Notes under the pieces: generated by a model
The model's input: the letters and a program-made list of their open reading frames with translations, nothing else
Databases searched by the model: none
What the model was told of the DNA's origin: nothing
Shown here: positions 1-8,312 of the stretch, in pieces
How the letters are laid out: each line of letters starts with the position of its first letter
How positions within the stretch are numbered: position 1 is the first letter of the stretch
Source: an uncultured Clostridium sp.
GTDB taxonomy: Bacteria; Bacillota_A; Clostridia; Lachnospirales; Lachnospiraceae
Length of the DNA: 12,114 nt
Reading direction: 5' to 3'
Assembly: GCA_900556965.1 (NCBI GenBank)
Contig: USQV01000011.1
Location: 1 to 12,114, forward strand
Position numbers and translations under genes: made by a program

Positions 1-1004
1 AGATGGAGCAGGCTGTTCAGAGCACGGTGGTGCAGGCGAGTGAGCCGAAGACCGGAAACATCTATCTGACAACAGAGCTGACCGGAACGATTGAGCCGGA
101 TGATGTGGTCCATGTATATGCAAAGGCCTCCGGAGACGTTACGGCAGTCAATGTGAAGGCCGGAGATACCGTCACGGCAGGACAGGTGCTTTTTACGATC
201 GACACGGAGCAGGTCGCAAGCGTTAAAAATTCTCTGGATTCTGCTTCCATGAATCTTGAGAAAGCCCAGAGCGATCTCGCAAGGATGAAGATCCTGTATG
301 ACGGAGGGGATTTATCGGAGCAGGAATATGAGCAGTATACGAATGCGGTGAGATCGGCTGAGCTCCAATATAAATCGGCAAAAACCTCCTACGACCAGCA
401 GGTCAGCTACAGCAGTGTGACCGCACCGATATCCGGAAAAGTGGAAAGCTGCTCGGCAGAGGTCTACGACAGAGTAAATATGAACGGAGAGCTCTGTGTC
501 ATCTCCGGTGAGGGAGAGAAAAAGGTGACTTTTTATGTCACACAGAGAATGCTGGAAAATATGGAAGCCGGAGACACAATGACGGTGGAAAAGAGCGGAA
601 ATACATATGAGGCCGTGATCGATGAGATCAGCACGATGGTGGATGATGCGACAGGGCTTTTTAAGATCGAGGCTCAGCTTGCCGATGCAGAGAATGCGGC
701 GACGGGCAGTACCGTAAAGCTTTGCGTTACCACGGGAAAGGCCGAGAATGTCATGACGATCCCGGTGAACGCCGTTTATTATGGCGGCGGGAAAGCCTAC
801 GTCTATGTTTATGAAGACGGAAAAGCAAAAAAGGTATCGATCGAGGTCGGTATCAATGATGATGATAATGTGGAAGTAACCGGAGGGCTTTCTGAAGGTG
901 ATCTTGTGGTAAGCACCTGGAGCAGCAATCTGTATGAGGGAGCGGACATCCAGTTGGCAGGAGCGCCAGCCGCGGATAGCAGCGCCGCATCACAGGAGGG
1001 CTGA
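1..1004 (+). CDS. RND efflux periplasmic adaptor (membrane fusion protein), 5' partial
   Basis: This is the adaptor subunit that links an RND permease to an outer conduit in tripartite efflux pumps. The visible 333 residues show the usual hairpin-like order: a first beta-barrel/lipoyl half (about 20-66, with a GDVTAVNVKAGDTVTAGQ lipoyl signature), an alpha-helical coiled-coil hairpin (about 67-133, rich in Glu, Lys, Gln), the second lipoyl half beginning VTAPISGKVES (139-149), a beta-barrel domain (about 172-245) and a membrane-proximal domain ending in a low-complexity Ala/Ser tail. The first visible Met is at base 3, but no ribosome site and no signal peptide or membrane anchor can be seen, so the real start is almost certainly upstream of the window. 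The stop is 2 nt before the permease start, and the permease ribosome site lies inside this gene. The family assignment is firm; the substrate is unknown. Confidence 0.9.
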   Translation, partial: MEQAVQSTVVQASEPKTGNIYLTTELTGTIEPDDVVHVYAKASGDVTAVNVKAGDTVTAGQVLFTIDTEQVASVKNSLDSASMNLEKAQSDLARMKILYDGGDLSEQEYEQYTNAVRSAELQYKSAKTSYDQQVSYSSVTAPISGKVESCSAEVYDRVNMNGELCVISGEGEKKVTFYVTQRMLENMEAGDTMTVEKSGNTYEAVIDEISTMVDDATGLFKIEAQLADAENAATGSTVKLCVTTGKAENVMTIPVNAVYYGGGKAYVYVYEDGKAKKVSIEVGINDDDNVEVTGGLSEGDLVVSTWSSNLYEGADIQLAGAPAADSSAASQEG

Positions 1005-1006
1005 TT

Positions 1007-4000
1007 ATGGGACTTACGAGATATGTATTAAAACGTCCGGTGACGACGATCTTAGCACTGCTCTGTATTCTTGTGTTCGGTATCTCCTCTGTGTTCAGTG
1101 CCACCCTTGAGCAGATGCCTGACACAGACCAGCCCATGCTAATTGTACGGGCCTCCTATTCCGGTGCGGCTCCGGAGGATATGGATGAGCTGGTAACAAA
1201 GCCCATAGAAGATCAGGTAAGCCAGCTGGAGGGAGTAAAGAGCATGTCCTCCACCTCTAACGAGGGGAATGCCATGATCATGCTGGAATATGATTACGAT
1301 GCAGATATGGATGAGGCTTATAATGAGCTGACCCGTTCCTTAAACAGCATCCGCGGTCTTCCGGAGGATTGCAGCACCAGCGTCATGGAGATGAACATGA
1401 ACGGCGGAGACGACATCATGCTGTCGATCTCTCATGACACTCAGGAGGATCTTTACGATTACGTGGATCAGAATGTGACACCGGTATTTGAGCAGCTCTC
1501 TACGGTGGCTCAGGTGGAATCCCGAGGCGGCTCCTCCGAATATATCAAGGTTGAGCTGGATCCGGTAAAGATGAAGCAGTATAAGGTGACCATGAACCAG
1601 ATCACGAGTGCTATGGCCTCTGCCGACCTTTCTTATCCTTCCGGTGATGCGGAATACGGGGATCTTTCTCTCTCAGTCACCACCTCAGTAAAGGCGTCAA
1701 CACTGGACGATCTTCTGAAGGTGCCGATCACGACCCAGAGCGGAAAGATCGTATATCTGGAGGATATCGCAGAGGTATACACGGCTGAGAAAAATATGGG
1801 CGGCATCTCCCGTTATAACGGACAGGAGACAATCTCCCTCTCGGTATCAAAAAAACAGAGCAGCTCTGCGATGAAGCTTTCTTCCGATGTTAAAGAGGCG
1901 GTGGAAACGCTGGAGGCCGCTGATCCAAAGCTTCATATCGAGATCGCCCGGGACAGCTCTGAGAGCATCAAGGAATCCCTTCTTGACGTTGCGGAAACGA
2001 TGGTATTAGCGGTCATCATATCCATGGTCATTATCTGGCTTTTCTTTGGAGATTTTAAGGCATCCCTGATCGTCGGAAGCTCGATCCCGACCTCGATCCT
2101 TGTATCCCTGATCCTGATGACCCGGGTAGGCTTTACGCTTAACGTTATCACCATGAGCGCTCTCGTTCTTGGCGTCGGCATGATGGTGGATAACTCCATC
2201 GTTGTTTTAGAGAGCTGCTTCAGGGCGATCGATAAGATGGAGGAGCGCGGCTTTGTGGAATACGCGAAGGCGGCCCTCGACGGCTCCGGCGTAGTCGCCA
2301 TGTCGGTTCTTGGCTCAACACTTACGACCTGTGTTGTATTCCTTCCGCTGACGACCATAAGCGGCATGAGCGGACAGATGTTTACCCCTCTCGGCTGGAC
2401 GATCGTATTCTGTATGAGCGCATCCCTCCTTTCTGCGATCACCGTCGTTCCTCTTACCTATATGTTATACAAGCCAAAGGAAAGGGAGCATGCGCCCTTA
2501 TCCGGTCTGATGAGGCTTTTACAGGCACTCTACCGTAAGGTGCTTCCGGGTATCCTTAAGCATAAGGTGATCGTCATGCTGGGCTCGATCGGGTTGGTTT
2601 TGGCAACCTTTTTCTTGGCCAGCGGTATGCAGAGCGAGCTGATGACCTCAGATGACAACGGAACGATCTCCGTGAACATCACCACGCGTCCGGGACTTCT
2701 CGATTCCAAGGCCGATGATATCGTCAATCAGGTGGAGGAGATCGTAAAGAGCCATGAGGACGTGGAATCCTATATGCTCCGTTATAACGGCAGCAGCGGA
2801 ACGGTCAGCGCCTATCTGAAGGATGATCGAAGGATGAGCACGGATGAGATCGTAGAGCAGTGGGAAGATGAGATGGCAGGACTTGAGAACTGTACCATCG
2901 AGGTCGAGGCCTCTGCCTCCATGAGCTTTATGGGAAGACGCCGCGGCTACGAGGTGATCTTAAGCGGAAGCGATTACGACACCGTAAAAGAGGCCGCGGA
3001 CAAGATCGTAACTGCCATGGTGGCTCGTGACGATGTGAAAAATGTTCATTCGGATGTGGAAAACACAGCGCCGGTCGTATCCATCAATGTCGATCAGGTG
3101 GCAGCCTCCGCAGAGGGCTTGACCGCCTCCTCCATCGGACAGCAGGTTAAATACATGCTGGATGGAGCGAAGATCGCAACGCTTACGATCGACGGCAATG
3201 AGGTCAGCGTAAATGCGGAATATCCGGAGGGCATGTACCGCACGGTCGAGCAGGTCAAGAACATGCTGCTGACGACCGGAAGCGGCAAGAGTGTTTCGCT
3301 TTCCGATGTGGCTGATGTCGAATTTAAGGATAACCCGTCCTCCATCTCCAAGACAGATAAGTCGTATGAGGTAACGGTATCGGCAGATTATGTCAACGGA
3401 AATGTTAAAACTCTGCTGGATAATGAGGTGGTTGCACCGAATCTGCCAAACGGCGTAACGATCGGAACAAATTCGATGGATCGGATGATGGCGGAGGAGT
3501 TTTCTTCCCTCTATAATGCCATTGCAGTTGCCGTATTTTTAGTCTTTGTGGTTATGGCAGCGCAGTTTGAATCACCGAAGTTTTCCTTTATGGTCATGAC
3601 TACGATTCCCTTTAGTCTGGTCGGTTCCTTTGGGCTCTTAAAGTTAACGGGAACCACCATCAGCATGACTTCTATTTTAGGCTTTCTTGTACTGATCGGT
3701 ACCGTCGTAAACAATGGTATCCTCTATGTGGATACCGTAAACCAGTACCGGATGACGATGGATCTTAAGACGGCGCTTGTGGAGGCCGGAGCAACGCGTT
3801 TACGCCCGATCCTAATGACCAGCTCCACCACGATCCTTTCCATGATCCCGATGATGCTTTCAAACGGAAGCAGCGCATCCACGACAAAGGGTCTGGCCGT
3901 TGTAAATATCGGCGGACTTACGGCAGGTATCTTAGTGGCATTATTTATCCTTCCGGTATATTATGCCATCATGAACGGCAAAAAAGAGCGGAAGGTGTTA

Positions 4001-4009
4001 GACATATAG
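1007..4009 (+). CDS. RND-superfamily efflux permease (AcrB/HAE-like)
   Basis: This is an inner-membrane proton/substrate antiporter subunit of 1000 residues, close to the family's usual 1000-1050. A first membrane helix follows YVLKRPVTTILALL at the N terminus. The large extracytoplasmic loops cover about 35-325 and 545-830, with helix bundles at about 330-490 and 832-990. The TM4 signature is GVGMMVDNSIVVLE (389-402), keeping one acidic residue (D395) where AcrB has the D407-D408 pair; the second position is Asn. The TM10 lysine of AcrB (K940) is replaced, since the segment reads GTVVNNGILYVD (N902/N903). RLRPILMT (931-938) matches the AcrB TM11 region with its conserved Arg. These substitutions resemble my recollection of other Gram-positive RND permeases. 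The start has an AGGAGG at 994-999, 7 nt before ATG. Substrate is not deducible; drug, lipid or peptide export are all possible. Confidence 0.93.
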   Translation: MGLTRYVLKRPVTTILALLCILVFGISSVFSATLEQMPDTDQPMLIVRASYSGAAPEDMDELVTKPIEDQVSQLEGVKSMSSTSNEGNAMIMLEYDYDADMDEAYNELTRSLNSIRGLPEDCSTSVMEMNMNGGDDIMLSISHDTQEDLYDYVDQNVTPVFEQLSTVAQVESRGGSSEYIKVELDPVKMKQYKVTMNQITSAMASADLSYPSGDAEYGDLSLSVTTSVKASTLDDLLKVPITTQSGKIVYLEDIAEVYTAEKNMGGISRYNGQETISLSVSKKQSSSAMKLSSDVKEAVETLEAADPKLHIEIARDSSESIKESLLDVAETMVLAVIISMVIIWLFFGDFKASLIVGSSIPTSILVSLILMTRVGFTLNVITMSALVLGVGMMVDNSIVVLESCFRAIDKMEERGFVEYAKAALDGSGVVAMSVLGSTLTTCVVFLPLTTISGMSGQMFTPLGWTIVFCMSASLLSAITVVPLTYMLYKPKEREHAPLSGLMRLLQALYRKVLPGILKHKVIVMLGSIGLVLATFFLASGMQSELMTSDDNGTISVNITTRPGLLDSKADDIVNQVEEIVKSHEDVESYMLRYNGSSGTVSAYLKDDRRMSTDEIVEQWEDEMAGLENCTIEVEASASMSFMGRRRGYEVILSGSDYDTVKEAADKIVTAMVARDDVKNVHSDVENTAPVVSINVDQVAASAEGLTASSIGQQVKYMLDGAKIATLTIDGNEVSVNAEYPEGMYRTVEQVKNMLLTTGSGKSVSLSDVADVEFKDNPSSISKTDKSYEVTVSADYVNGNVKTLLDNEVVAPNLPNGVTIGTNSMDRMMAEEFSSLYNAIAVAVFLVFVVMAAQFESPKFSFMVMTTIPFSLVGSFGLLKLTGTTISMTSILGFLVLIGTVVNNGILYVDTVNQYRMTMDLKTALVEAGATRLRPILMTSSTTILSMIPMMLSNGSSASTTKGLAVVNIGGLTAGILVALFILPVYYAIMNGKKERKVLDI

Positions 4010-4031
4010 TAAGAAAGGGAGGTCATAGAAA

Positions 4032-5189
4032 ATGAAACGATGGAAAATTGCAGGGCTTTTTGCCATGGCGTTCGTGCTCAGCACGGCGCCCCTTAAGGCC
4101 TTAGCTGTCAGCCCGGAGTTTGCGTACACAGAAGAAAAGTGGGCTTCTCTTAAAGATAACAAGCTGGAATATGAGGAGATCTCAGAGCTGATCCACGAAT
4201 ATAATACGACGGTACGCCAGAATGCTCGGGATTATCAGGAATACAGAGGCAAAACGAGTACGGAGATCTCAAAGGAATATTATGAGTCGGCAGACGAGGT
4301 TACCCAACGGATCTCCTATCCAGATGATGTCAGTGACGGCTATGCGTCCCAGATCTCCTCGGCTCTAAACGGTGAGATCTCAGCGGAGAATCTGATCGAG
4401 CAGGGAGATAAAAACGTGGATGACGGGGAGATCAAGCGTCTTGGCTATGAACAGACGGAAAAAAACCTTGTGCAGCAGGCACAGAAGCTGATGATCTCAT
4501 ATTACAGTGGGAAAGAAGCCTTGAAAACGTTAGAGAGCTCCGTAACACAGGCAGAAACAGCTTATGAACAGGCAAAAACAAAGGTGGCAGCCGGTATGGC
4601 CCTTTCTTCCGGTGTTGACACGGCAGCAGAGACGGTTACGAAAGCAAAGGCATCCCTCAGGTCCGCAGAAACCAGTCTGGATAAGACAAAAAAGCAGCTT
4701 CTGATCCTTCTGGGCTGGAGTGCCGATTCGGAGGTGGAGCTCGGGACTCTGCCGGAGATAGATCTTTCCTCCCTATCGTCTATTGATATCGAGGCAGATA
4801 TCAAAACGGCAGTCACCAATAACTACAGTGTCAGGATCACCAGACAGCGGCTTTCCAATTCGCAGTCAGAAAATAATAAGATCACCTATACGAATACGCT
4901 GAAGAATCAGGAGGATACCGTAGCGGCAAATGTCAGAAACACCTACAACAGCCTGCTTCTTACTAAGGACAGCTATGAGCAGGCTAAGACGGCCTATGAG
5001 CTTTCAGAAAAGGAACGGGCGGCAGCAGAGCTTAAGCTTTCAGCCGGAGTCATCACAAAGAAAACGTATGAAAAGCAGGAAGCAGCCTGCCTGTCTGCTA
5101 AAACGGAATTGGAAACGGCAAGACTTGAGCTTCTGACCGCAAAATTAACGTATGACTGGGCAATCGCAGGGCTCGCTTCGGCATCATAA
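4032..5189 (+). CDS. TolC-family protein, first of two paralogs, probably barrel-less
   Basis: This secreted alpha-helical protein has the internal duplication of TolC-type outer-membrane factors. A Sec signal peptide (basic MKRWK, hydrophobic core, ALA at 23-25) has no lipobox Cys. Two matching helical hairpins follow: one around 150-225, with AAGMALSSG and an LLILLGW end, and one around 300-383, with LSAGVITKKTYEK and LTYDWAIAGL. A linker with GTLPEIDL (about 238-245) separates them. At 385 residues it is shorter than classical TolC proteins (about 450-490). Between the NNYSVRI helix (about 263) and NTYNSLLL only about 40 residues remain, where classical members carry a membrane beta-hairpin. 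I infer a purely helical tube or periplasm-equivalent element partnering the upstream adaptor and permease. The start is supported by AAGGGAGGT at 4015-4023, 22 nt after the permease stop. Confidence 0.82.
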   Translation: MKRWKIAGLFAMAFVLSTAPLKALAVSPEFAYTEEKWASLKDNKLEYEEISELIHEYNTTVRQNARDYQEYRGKTSTEISKEYYESADEVTQRISYPDDVSDGYASQISSALNGEISAENLIEQGDKNVDDGEIKRLGYEQTEKNLVQQAQKLMISYYSGKEALKTLESSVTQAETAYEQAKTKVAAGMALSSGVDTAAETVTKAKASLRSAETSLDKTKKQLLILLGWSADSEVELGTLPEIDLSSLSSIDIEADIKTAVTNNYSVRITRQRLSNSQSENNKITYTNTLKNQEDTVAANVRNTYNSLLLTKDSYEQAKTAYELSEKERAAAELKLSAGVITKKTYEKQEAACLSAKTELETARLELLTAKLTYDWAIAGLASAS

Positions 5190-5207
5190 GGCGGGAGATG
5201 AAAAAAA

Positions 5208-6368
5208 ATGAAGAAATGGAACAGAGCGTTAACGGGGATACTCACCGGATTTGTACTTACCGCTTCTATCGTAAGCAATGGAGGCATGACCGCCCTTGCT
5301 GCGGAGAATACAGAAAACAGTCAGTCGGCTGTTACCACGATCGAGTATGGGGATCTGCGGGAGTGGATCAAAAAAGGAAACTTTTCCTATCTTCAGAGTG
5401 CAGAGGCCCAGAGCCTTCAGAGTGCACCTTATGAAAAGATGCATGAAACGTTAAAAACGGAATATGAGGAGCTGATGAAGATGGCCGATTCCTATAAGGA
5501 TGACGGCGATACTGATATGCAGGCCTTATATGAGAGCAACGCAAAGAGCATCCGCCGTTCTATGGCACAGGTGCAGTCGACGATCAATCGGATGAATTCC
5601 TCCGGTCAGGAAAAGAACATGGAGGATATGGCAGATACGCTGACCGCATCGGCACAGAATCTGATGTATTCTTATAACCAAATGAAGGAGAACGTTGCCG
5701 CAGAGGAAAAAAGTCTGGAGGCCCTGCAGGCCGATTATGACGCAGCCTGTAAAAAGCGTGCCGCAGGACTCATCAAGGACACGGAGTTAGAGACAAAGGC
5801 AGGAGAGCTGGAAAAAAAGAAAAACTCTCTTGCCTCCATGAAGGAGCAGCAGAGACAGCGAAAGGAGGAGCTGCTGACGCTTTTGGGACTGTCCGGTCAG
5901 GAGAATGTAAAGATCGGCACAGTTCCTGAGCCGGATCTGGAAGCGATCCGTGCCGTTTCCGTGGAGAATGATCTGGAAACAGCCATCAGCAATGATCCGA
6001 CTTGGGCAAGTGAGATGCTCTCAAAGGTCAAGGGAACAGATAACCGTGAATTGAAAAAGGAGCGGATCCGTGAGGCGGCAGAGAATGCCGAGATCAACCT
6101 CAGGGCAGCTTATGAAGATCTGCAGAATACTCTCTCAAAATACGAGGCAGCCCAAAGCTCCTTTTCGGCAGCCCAACAGGAATGGGATACCGTTTGTAAG
6201 AAGCAGTCAGCCGGAATGTTATCCAAAAACGGATATCTAACCGGGGAAGCCGGATGGCTTTCCGGTAAAGCAGCCTTAAATACGGCAAAGCTGGAGCTGG
6301 CATCAGCTTATCAGACATATTTATGGCAGGTTCAGGGAGTCGGAGGCGGGATGAGTACCATGAAGTAA
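5208..6368 (+). CDS. TolC-family protein, second paralog, probably barrel-less
   Basis: This is the tandem paralog of the preceding gene (386 residues). Aligned landmarks include AAGLIKDTELETKAGELEKK, LLTLLGLSG, IGTVPEPDL, AISND and KQSAGMLSKNGY, in the same order and spacing as in its neighbour. It has a signal peptide (MKKWNR, hydrophobic core, probable cleavage after ALAA at 29-32) and no lipobox. Most of the mature protein is Lys/Glu/Gln/Ala-rich helix, with coiled coil predicted by eye at about 155-225 and 290-340. As in the first copy, the region that would hold the second beta-hairpin is only about 40 residues and reads as continuous charged helix. The ribosome site GGGAG (5193-5197) gives 10 nt spacing to ATG 5208. 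Another ATG at 5198 abuts it and is out of frame, so 5208 is preferred. The pair could form a hetero-oligomer or serve alternative pump states. The function of the duplication is unknown. Confidence 0.78.
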   Translation: MKKWNRALTGILTGFVLTASIVSNGGMTALAAENTENSQSAVTTIEYGDLREWIKKGNFSYLQSAEAQSLQSAPYEKMHETLKTEYEELMKMADSYKDDGDTDMQALYESNAKSIRRSMAQVQSTINRMNSSGQEKNMEDMADTLTASAQNLMYSYNQMKENVAAEEKSLEALQADYDAACKKRAAGLIKDTELETKAGELEKKKNSLASMKEQQRQRKEELLTLLGLSGQENVKIGTVPEPDLEAIRAVSVENDLETAISNDPTWASEMLSKVKGTDNRELKKERIREAAENAEINLRAAYEDLQNTLSKYEAAQSSFSAAQQEWDTVCKKQSAGMLSKNGYLTGEAGWLSGKAALNTAKLELASAYQTYLWQVQGVGGGMSTMK

Positions 6369-6377
6369 ACATACTAA

Positions 6378-6432
6378 AGGGGCGCTGCAAGTCTGGCATA
6401 TCCAATAGGATAGCCAGTTTTGCGGCGCCCTT
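6378..6432. terminator. Long nested hairpin between convergent genes, possible bidirectional terminator
   Basis: The sequence folds into one long imperfect hairpin. The outer arm GGGCGCTGCAA (6380-6390) pairs with TTGCGGCGCCC (6420-6430) through one U-G wobble. A short mismatch at 6391-6392/6418-6419 follows. The inner arm CTGGC-A-TATCC (6393-6403) pairs with GGATA-GCCAG (6408-6417), leaving A6398 bulged and an AATA loop. It sits 10 nt after the second TolC-like stop and 18 nt from the stop of the convergent DUF1540 gene. The placement suits a shared terminator, but neither flank has a convincing T-run (only TT on the plus strand, TTT on the minus), so factor-independent termination is uncertain. 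It could instead be a 3'-end stabiliser or a dispersed palindromic repeat. Confidence 0.5.
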
Positions 6433-6449
6433 CGTGTTAAAGAGATCCC

Positions 6450-6623
6450 TTAAGACATTTTGTACTGGAAGGAATCACAGTCGGTACATTCCTTCATTTT
6501 CGGATCCGCCTCGTGCGTTCCGACATGGATCTTTTCTAAGGTGCAGTAGTCCACAGTACCGGCATGGTGTACGCAGTTGTGGATCGAGCACTGGATGCAG
6601 TCATTTTTACCCTGATTCAGCAT
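6450..6623 (-). CDS. DUF1540 domain-containing six-cysteine miniprotein
   Basis: This 57-residue protein matches the DUF1540 pattern: Cys at 9, 12, 17, 27, 46 and 49, with NDCIQCSIHNC, YCTLEKIHVGTHEADP and ECTDCDSFQ as landmarks. Members are small, cytosolic-looking Cys-rich proteins common in Clostridia. No biochemical role is established, and metal binding is only an inference from the Cys pairs. The reading frame opens at 6668, but the ATG at 6623 is chosen because it has AAAGGTGG 7 nt upstream; translation from 6668 would begin without a ribosome site and inside a strong hairpin. It is convergent with the efflux operon and lies 163 nt downstream of the M42 peptidase. I found no convincing promoter of its own, so it may be read through from the peptidase gene. 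Confidence 0.85.
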   Translation of the reverse strand: MLNQGKNDCIQCSIHNCVHHAGTVDYCTLEKIHVGTHEADPKMKECTDCDSFQYKMS

Positions 6624-6649
6624 AATTTCACCACCTTTGTTTTTTAGAC

Positions 6650-6678
6650 GCGCCGGTGCAGAAGCCATTTACCGGCGC
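6650..6678 (-). promoter_or_regulatory. Hairpin in the DUF1540 leader
   Basis: A perfect 8-bp inverted repeat, GCGCCGGT (6650-6657) and ACCGGCGC (6671-6678), encloses a 13-nt loop. It lies about 12 nt upstream of the DUF1540 ribosome site on the minus strand. A competing pairing is possible between GCAGA in the loop (6658-6662) and TCTGC outside the stem (6678-6682), so two mutually exclusive folds can be drawn. On the minus strand it is followed by an A-run and not a T-run, so it is not a standard intrinsic terminator. The rest of the 163-nt gap between the two minus-strand genes holds only a T-rich stretch after the peptidase stop with no clear stem. Confidence 0.4.
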
Positions 6679-6786
6679 TCTGCCGATGGGACGGTTCTAA
6701 ACTGACGCGATGGTCTTATTATGACCCCACGGGAGAAAATTATAACGGACAAAGAGTAAAAATGCTGGAAAAAAATTCCGGATCGA

Positions 6787-7878
6787 TTAGAAGCTCTTGA
6801 TGATCTCTGCATTCATCGATTTTACAAGCTCTACCGCTAAGCGGACAGTAGCCTCAAAATCATAGTAGGAGGTAATTCCGTGGATCGTGTGGATGTAGCG
6901 GACCGGAACACCGACAACGATTGCCGGAATGCCGTCCAGAGAGGTCTGTACGATGGCACCGTTGTTTCCGCCGCCTTCTCTTACCGAGGCCTGTATCGGG
7001 AGTCCCTTTTTCTCTGCAAGGTCAAGGGCAAAACGCTGATATCTCGGAGCACAGATGACGGATTTATCCATAAAGCGGAGCATAGGCCCTTTCTTGAAAG
7101 CGGTCTGGATCGCATAGGGCTCGGTGAAGGTATCGTCTGCCGGGCATCCCTCGAAGCAGATAGCGATCTGCGGCTTAACATGGTTAACGGCAACCTTCAT
7201 TCCGCGTTCACCGACCTCCTCCTGGGAAGAAAGCACGCCTACAAGATCCACGTCCAGATCCTCATCCTTTAAGCGGTGCAGCGCCTCGATCAGAGCAGCA
7301 CAGCCGATCCGGCAGTCAAAGGCCTTACCGAACATAAGATCATGCTCACTGTCGTATTCCATTGTTACGTCCGGAACGATCGGCTCTCCGATACGGATCT
7401 TGAAGTTTTCAACTGCATCCTTTGCATCTACCGCTCCGATATCGATAGAAAGGGAGGAAATGCTGGCAGCACCGGCAGATGCTTTCTCTGCTTCTGTCAT
7501 GAAGTGAACCGGCTTTGCCGCGATGATTCCCGGAAGATAGCGTCCCTCGGAATTGCGGACAAGAACCTTGGAGGATGCGAGGGAGCCTACGTTCCAGCCT
7601 CCGAGAGAAACAAAGCGCAGTGTACCGTTGGGACGGATGGAGTGAACCATAAAGCCTACCTCATCTCCGTGTGCATCCAGCATGAATACAGGCTTGTTTC
7701 CTGTATTTTTATTGCGGTACATATAAAAGTTTCTCATGCAGTCTTCCTCGGTGGAATATCCCTCACCGATGTGTTTTCTTGCTGCAAGGATCGTCTCATC
7801 CTCAAAGCCTGACGGCGCTTTAGCATTGGAAAGGTCTGCGATCATCTGCAGAGTTTCCGGATTGTAATTGATGCCCAT
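6787..7878 (-). CDS. M42-family metalloaminopeptidase (glutamyl aminopeptidase/endoglucanase-M type)
   Basis: This is a cytosolic, probably dodecameric, two-metal aminopeptidase that removes N-terminal residues from short peptides. The protein is 363 residues, normal for the family. Visible active-site elements are LDAHGDEVGF (metal-ligand H70, D72), GKAFDCRIGC (bridging D188), SSQEEVGERG (catalytic base E220 and ligand E221), an acidic ligand region CFEGCPADD (241-249) and the C-terminal ligand His in RYIH (330). The GGTDAG segment common in M42 enzymes reads GGGNNGA here (302-308), which I believe marks a clostridial subgroup and not a defect, but I cannot verify that. The start is supported by AGGAGG 7 nt upstream and a promoter at 7923-7951. 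Substrate preference cannot be read from the sequence. Older annotations call such proteins endoglucanase M. Confidence 0.92.
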   Translation of the reverse strand: MGINYNPETLQMIADLSNAKAPSGFEDETILAARKHIGEGYSTEEDCMRNFYMYRNKNTGNKPVFMLDAHGDEVGFMVHSIRPNGTLRFVSLGGWNVGSLASSKVLVRNSEGRYLPGIIAAKPVHFMTEAEKASAGAASISSLSIDIGAVDAKDAVENFKIRIGEPIVPDVTMEYDSEHDLMFGKAFDCRIGCAALIEALHRLKDEDLDVDLVGVLSSQEEVGERGMKVAVNHVKPQIAICFEGCPADDTFTEPYAIQTAFKKGPMLRFMDKSVICAPRYQRFALDLAEKKGLPIQASVREGGGNNGAIVQTSLDGIPAIVVGVPVRYIHTIHGITSYYDFEATVRLAVELVKSMNAEIIKSF

Positions 7879-8069: not shown

Positions 8070-8312
8070 ATGAATATCGGGGATTGGATCCTTATCATCG
8101 TGATCGCAGGAGCTGTCTTAACGGCAATGTGGTACAAAAGAAGACAGAAGAAACAGGGAAAAGGCTGCTGCGGCTGTTCGGGCTGTTCCGGCTGTCGGGG
8201 GTGTTCTGCCGGAGAGGCAAAACCCGACCGTACAGCTTCTTCTGACCGTACAGTTCCTTTTGACCGTACGGCTTGTTCTGATCGTAAAGACAGCTCCTGC
8301 CGCCCGAGCTGA
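8070..8312 (+). CDS. FeoB-associated-type Cys-rich membrane peptide
   Basis: The 80-residue product has one N-terminal membrane helix (about 6-22, DWILIIVIAGAVLTAMWY), a basic stop-transfer segment KRRQKKQGKG, then a glycine/cysteine cluster (Cys 33, 34, 36, 39, 42, 45) and a polar tail with Cys at 69 and 77. The order, a helix followed by basic residues and a GCCGCSGC-like cluster, is that of the short proteins often encoded beside ferrous-iron transporter FeoB. No feoA or feoB is visible here, so the name is by resemblance only; metal handling at the membrane is an inference. The tail consists of four DRTxxx-type hexapeptides and is longer than I would expect for the family. The ATG at 8070 is chosen because the promoter start is near 8023 and the G-run ribosome site precedes it. 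It is a monocistronic unit with its own promoter and terminator. Confidence 0.75.
   Translation: MNIGDWILIIVIAGAVLTAMWYKRRQKKQGKGCCGCSGCSGCRGCSAGEAKPDRTASSDRTVPFDRTACSDRKDSSCRPS
8226..8297 (+). repeat. Four-unit 18-bp tandem repeat inside the Cys-rich peptide gene
   Basis: Units start at 8226, 8244, 8262 and 8280, each 18 bp and beginning GACCGTACAG or a close variant (third unit GACCGTACGG, fourth GATCGTAAAG). They encode DRTASS, DRTVPF, DRTACS and DRKDSS. The first three share the nine-base core GACCGTACR at nucleotide level, while the fourth has diverged, consistent with expansion from one end. Confidence 0.85.

Follow-up and report, generated by a model that had tools for sequence, protein, structure and literature searches.

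The first 6368 nucleotides (nt) of a 12 114-nt stretch of DNA (contig USQV01000011.1; in the following, the window) from an uncultured Clostridium sp. of the order Lachnospirales, family Lachnospiraceae, carry the genes of an adaptor, a resistance-nodulation-division (RND) permease and two TolC-like proteins, here called OEP1 and OEP2 after their Pfam family (OEP, PF02321). The operon probably encodes an RND exporter of single-membrane Lachnospiraceae, in which the OEP proteins would form an alpha-helical conduit that enters or crosses the cell wall. What the computation establishes is which parts there are and in what order, that the predicted channel proteins lack the beta-barrel, that outer-membrane assembly genes are absent from relatives and that the OEP1-OEP2 pair is constant in its clade; a helical wall conduit would fit the missing barrel, the retained docking features and the wall-type domains that are fused to such proteins in some relatives.

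The operon and its pump components

The four genes, all on the + strand, are separated by spacers of 2 nt (1004/1007), 22 nt (4009/4032) and 18 nt (5189/5208).

1..1004, + strand: HlyD-type adaptor (membrane fusion protein), truncated at its 5' end by the start of the window; HlyD_3, HlyD_D23 and Biotin_lipoyl_2 (Pfam), RND_mfp (NCBIfam)
1007..4009, + strand: RND permease, 1000 residues; ACR_tran (Pfam), best solved relative MdtB
4032..5189, + strand: OEP1, first TolC-like protein, 385 residues; OEP (Pfam), AlphaFold2 (AF2), Foldseek, VIA-align
5208..6368, + strand: OEP2, second TolC-like protein, 386 residues; OEP (Pfam), AF2, Foldseek, VIA-align

The spacers and the order adaptor-permease-TolC-TolC had been given in the original prediction and are confirmed by the reading frames and Pfam families. 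The prediction had also called the operon complete: a four-gene operon is indeed real, but its completeness is not borne out, the 5' end of the adaptor gene lying outside the window. The arrangement is not due to chance, since the same gene order recurs in many genomes. The nearest full-length relative (locus L001) is identical to the window at 65% (adaptor), 70% (permease), 56% (OEP1) and 43% (OEP2) of positions. By eye, the divergent frame upstream of its operon reads as an OmpR-type response regulator, and the counterpart of this frame in L008 matches Response_reg and Trans_reg_C in Pfam. Within positions 3900-6800 of the window, promoter- and terminator-like sites did not exceed the level of shuffled sequence.

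The permease matches ACR_tran nearly end to end (667 bits, positions 3-1020 of the 1021 in the profile), as expected of an RND permease, and its closest solved structure is MdtB (E 8.9e-79); against the NCBIfam multidrug subfamily it scores 594.7, below the cut-off of 1250. The RND proton-relay residues were inspected by AcrB numbering and are not used as evidence. The adaptor matches HlyD_3 (57 bits), HlyD_D23 (42 bits) and Biotin_lipoyl_2, and scores 191 bits against RND_mfp (cut-off 94.9). The gene starts upstream of the ATG at position 3: aligned by eye on the common TGNIY, the L001 adaptor is about 48 residues longer at the N-terminus, where it carries a hydrophobic, anchor-like stretch. 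The window adaptor has the lipoyl/barrel-sandwich domains and the RLS hairpin tip (see below) of an AcrAB-TolC-type pump, its N-terminus being beyond the window.

Two TolC-like proteins without a predicted barrel

OEP1 and OEP2 match the OEP family with 70 and 30 bits, respectively (cut-off 22), and both begin, by eye, with a signal-peptide-like N-terminus; from residue 41 on, neither contains a membrane-like stretch. Their AF2 models are helical (predicted local distance difference test, pLDDT, 85 from 32 sequences for OEP1 and 80 from 25 for OEP2) and hold no beta-strand of at least three residues, so that the outer-membrane beta-barrel is absent from both. In our own reading of the repeat layout, the first beta-hairpin of TolC is replaced by helices (76-93 and 104-127 in OEP1; within 59-99 and 102-129 in OEP2), and a short turn stands at the place of the second (277-279 in OEP1, 272-276 in OEP2). 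The alpha-helical barrel fold of outer-membrane factors (OMFs) is, judged on these monomer models, present: all Foldseek matches with E ≤0.001, 39 for OEP1 and 43 for OEP2, are OMFs, as are the top 29 VIA-align entries for each model, the matches of both tools being of the TolC/OprM/CusC type. The TolC label of the original prediction needs correcting in that these are not classical TolC proteins, both predicted models lacking the beta-barrel.

A search of solved structures by sequence alone reached a best E of 0.26 (OEP1) and 0.098 (OEP2), and a profile of OEP1 gave weak matches to OMFs and adaptors (best E 0.0048). Among 32 pairs compared by region, OEP1 is best kept in the N-terminal linker and the crown, a result not used as evidence. 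The mature N-terminus of OEP1 (residues 29-46, window 4116-4170) holds a strongly conserved motif around PEFAYTEEKWASL. That such proteins might be lipoproteins was considered and set aside: of 136 frames, taken with any upstream read-in, 16 have a lipobox-like string by residue 75, and neither window OEP is among them.

A constant tandem pair

An OEP1 profile, run once against 84 980 species genomes, returned 73 loci; the scan, being seeded on OEP1 motifs, could not return systems without OEP1. Exactly two OEP frames are found at 69 loci and three, namely a split OEP1 plus OEP2, at two, while the remaining two (L017, L070) are cut by contig ends; the OEP genes are, therefore, paired in all 71 assessable loci, and at L031 the contig ends within the second OEP. 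A tree made by a quick method, with some long branches, covers 68 pairs (67 loci plus the window; six loci were excluded because their frames were split, cut or out of range); 65 of these pairs separate into a first-position and a second-position clade, the exceptions being L068, which is swapped, and L065 and L066, both copies of which fall on the first-position side. OEP1 and OEP2 are an old tandem pair, constant in this clade.

What precedes the pair is more varied. By our own tally of the 73 loci, a whole or partial RND permease lies upstream in 55, an adaptor with ATP-binding cassette (ABC)-type, MacB-type genes in eight (checked by Pfam for L037 alone) and no pump gene directly upstream in 10 (L034, L036, L039, L041, L044, L047, L048, L050, L054 and L062); at L036, a TetR regulator (Pfam) precedes the pair. 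Pairing is not a rule of the whole order: among 20 regions around PF02321 matches with high scores in other parts of the order, one (L123) has two OEP genes and 18 have one, the remaining region (L104) being left out of the count. These single OEPs stand behind RND pumps (L110, L115, L117, L120) or ABC pumps (L113, L116), among others.

Host and outer-membrane markers

The TrkA protein encoded beside the operon is 88% identical to one of Lachnospiraceae bacterium 45-P1, with other matches reaching 99%, and the records with the 73 loci are titled Clostridium, Lachnospiraceae, Enterocloster, Hungatella or Clostridia, among others; both lines support the clostridial placement of the contig made in the original prediction. 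The one odd label, Gastranaerophilales (L047), probably results from mis-binning, as an identical second OEP occurs in an Enterocloster metagenome-assembled genome (MAG; L048).

Outer-membrane markers were sought in 28 genomes carrying the same system, reached from 30 of the 73 loci, in all of which PF02321 was over its cut-off. Omp85/BamA was found in none of the 28 by a search that is positive in seven of 14 named controls, those that respond being diderm bacteria. LptD was likewise found in none, a result that says less, because the search detects just two of the 14 controls. Across 196 sampled genomes of the order, Omp85 was nowhere over the cut-off, with one weak sub-threshold match (G069), and PF02321 was matched in 124 (over the cut-off in 119), a few of these matches being adaptors. 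Judged by the gene content of these relatives, the host appears to lack an outer membrane.

Docking features

In adaptors, the RLS motif is spaced R-x3-L-x6-S. The window adaptor carries an RLS-type hairpin tip at R94-L98-S105 (numbered in the frame from position 3), and its relatives keep it: in 57 aligned adaptors (the window's and 56 from the loci, frames of 300 residues or fewer excluded), the three positions read R/L/S in 55, R/L/T in one and K/L/S in one. A contrast set of 26 distinct adaptor-like frames (30 loci), drawn from 20 of the 72 genomes of the order that have no PF02321 match (16 of the 20 match TIGR01730), has R/L/S in one and K/L/S in two. The motif is named for adaptors in a figure legend of PMC8277102.

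On the other side of the putative junction, both adaptor-facing hairpin-tip glycines are kept in OEP1 and OEP2. The same holds in a wider sample of one PF02321 protein per genome, taken as the best-scoring 87 of the 124 matching genomes of the order: each tip glycine is G in 84 of the 87, which include some adaptors.

Wall-type domains in wider relatives

In Pfam, all 87 wider relatives match OEP, 11 match Cu_amine_oxidN1, one (L213) matches SLH and seven match HlyD families. The Cu_amine_oxidN1 or SLH domain is N-terminal in 12 of the 87, which are single-copy relatives, and these fusions hint at anchoring in the wall. SLH domains bind wall polymers, the role of Cu_amine_oxidN1 being less certain.

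The SLH-bearing protein, from a member of the order, carries two N-terminal SLH stretches (L213:1936-3627, the same gene as in L074 and L214), and TolC-like proteins with N-terminal Cu_amine_oxidN1 are found at L082, L084/L111, L097/L121, L102 and L174. Two further OEP proteins, of 692 (L177:1435-3510) and 720 residues (L200:2409-4568), carry long extensions at the C-terminus, which Pfam assigns to no family. The SLH-OEP fusion does not seem a widespread form: in 22 genomes of the family, L213's own gene is the sole full-length match among the matches listed, the others covering just one of the two parts, SLH or OEP. Nor did OEP-adaptor fusions hold up: of the seven HlyD-matching proteins, the four inspected with Pfam (L183, L199, L202, L207) resemble adaptors, with coiled coils that cross-match PF02321.

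Possible mechanism and competing explanations

In the favoured wall conduit, the adaptor would be seated on the permease and its RLS tips would dock end to end onto the hairpin tips of an alpha-helical tube. The tube would be a ring assembled from OEP1 and OEP2, held by the wall rather than by a membrane, and would release the substrate into or beyond the peptidoglycan; the paralogues may divide the labour as a mixed ring, as two stacked tubes or as alternates. A more specific version, in which OEP1 and OEP2 build a heteromeric or two-storey stacked helical tube that serves RND and ABC pumps by carrying their substrates across the Gram-positive wall, a trans-wall channel replacing the one through the outer membrane, with SLH and Cu_amine_oxidN1 as wall anchors in some single-copy relatives, is put forward tentatively and is the less probable of the two. 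Several points weigh against a wall conduit. The wall-type domains belong to distant single-copy relatives and, as far as tested, not to this clade, and Pfam recognises no wall-anchoring domain in the window's own OEP1 and OEP2; what Cu_amine_oxidN1 does is uncertain. Furthermore, the contrast adaptors include distant, badly aligning sequences, which makes the comparison of tips a rough one, and the lower VIA-align scores of OEP2 (11.5 to 13) fall in a range where the tool warns of helical bundles.

The families and the gene order are those of Gram-negative pumps, which would suit an ordinary diderm tripartite pump; such a pump is, however, very improbable here, given the negative Omp85 and LptD results in system-bearing genomes, that for Omp85 in the order, two OEP models without a barrel and a lachnospiraceal TrkA next door. 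There is perhaps one chance in a handful that the TolC-like proteins reside instead in a proteinaceous surface layer (S-layer) replacing the outer membrane, as modelled in PMC8809574, where S-layer genes accompany every example described. SLH is over the cut-off in 22 of the 28 system-bearing genomes, with at least two matches in one frame in 11 (our tally), and the L213 fusion would also suit an S-layer. Yet six of the 28, among which C. porci and C. clostridioforme AGR2157 are isolates, have no SLH match, and CW_binding_2 exceeds its cut-off in none (weak matches in two), gaps that weaken the published model; some of the other four SLH-negative genomes are MAGs from which sequence may be missing, and an S-layer can be anchored by other means. 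Somewhat less likely still, the OEPs might be soluble extracytoplasmic scaffolds, plugs or relics on the adaptor tips, with the substrate leaving the pump at the surface of the membrane. If a tube lacks a membrane end, no exit to be sealed is evident; other adaptors of Gram-positive bacteria are described as functioning without TolC (PMC5985334), and 10 of the loci have the pair but no directly upstream pump gene. Relics, however, are argued against by the conservation of both tips and of the pair, intact in 69 of the 71 assessable loci, with a split OEP1 in the other two.

Relation to known systems

The core idea is not new, in that barrel-altered TolC-like operons of monoderms were published in 2022 (PMC8809574). 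That paper describes TolC-like proteins as widespread among monoderm Firmicutes, many of them encoded together with the two remaining pump components in one operon. It reports the absence of the beta-barrel assembly machinery (BAM) and an omission in the barrel of a modelled C. difficile protein, and proposes the S-layer model. The window operon shares with those described there a TolC-like gene next to adaptor and inner-pump genes, and an altered or missing barrel. It differs in that its two TolC-like genes recur as a fixed pair within one clade, where they also stand behind ABC pumps or alone, whereas the S6 legend of the paper gives two in just one of 12 operons (L. gingivalis); furthermore, S-layer genes are reported there for each example, unlike in the six genomes without an SLH match noted above. 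The present analysis adds that OEP1 and OEP2 form a constant pair, and contributes the docking contrast and the fusions to wall-type domains.

With AcrAB-TolC and MexAB-OprM the operon has in common an RND permease, a HlyD-type adaptor with an RLS tip and an OMF fold with tip glycines, but its OMF models are without the outer-membrane beta-barrel, its relatives are without outer-membrane assembly genes and its OMF is present as two paralogues. YknXYZ and the RND protein YerP are likewise an inner pump and/or adaptor of Gram-positive bacteria, for which the accounts in PMC5985334 and PMC8277102, in their relevant passages, mention no TolC-like partner. An OEP-family protein of another Gram-positive, Dred_3141 of Desulfotomaculum reducens, is recorded together with HlyD proteins in the surfaceome (surface extracts) of PMC4137172, as a single protein in a proteome list. 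By title and opening of the abstract, the literature searched held nothing recognisable on paired barrel-less TolC proteins, and the fixed pair is a little-described variant.

Neighbouring genes

On the 3' side of the operon, Pfam identifies DUF1540, an M42 peptidase, TrkA, TrkH and a methyltransferase, the last cut by the window end. A small Cys-rich frame (window 8070-8312) between the M42 peptidase and TrkA presumably resembles FeoB-associated Cys-rich membrane proteins.

Significance

If the wall conduit is real, single-membrane bacteria would use the helical half of TolC to cross the wall, and the adaptor-docking role of the channel would be separable from its membrane role, which would bear on the fate of pumps once most Firmicutes had lost the outer membrane. 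With PF02321 matched in 124 of the 196 order genomes sampled, this is a question about common gut bacteria, and the pair would lend itself to tests as a two-component system.
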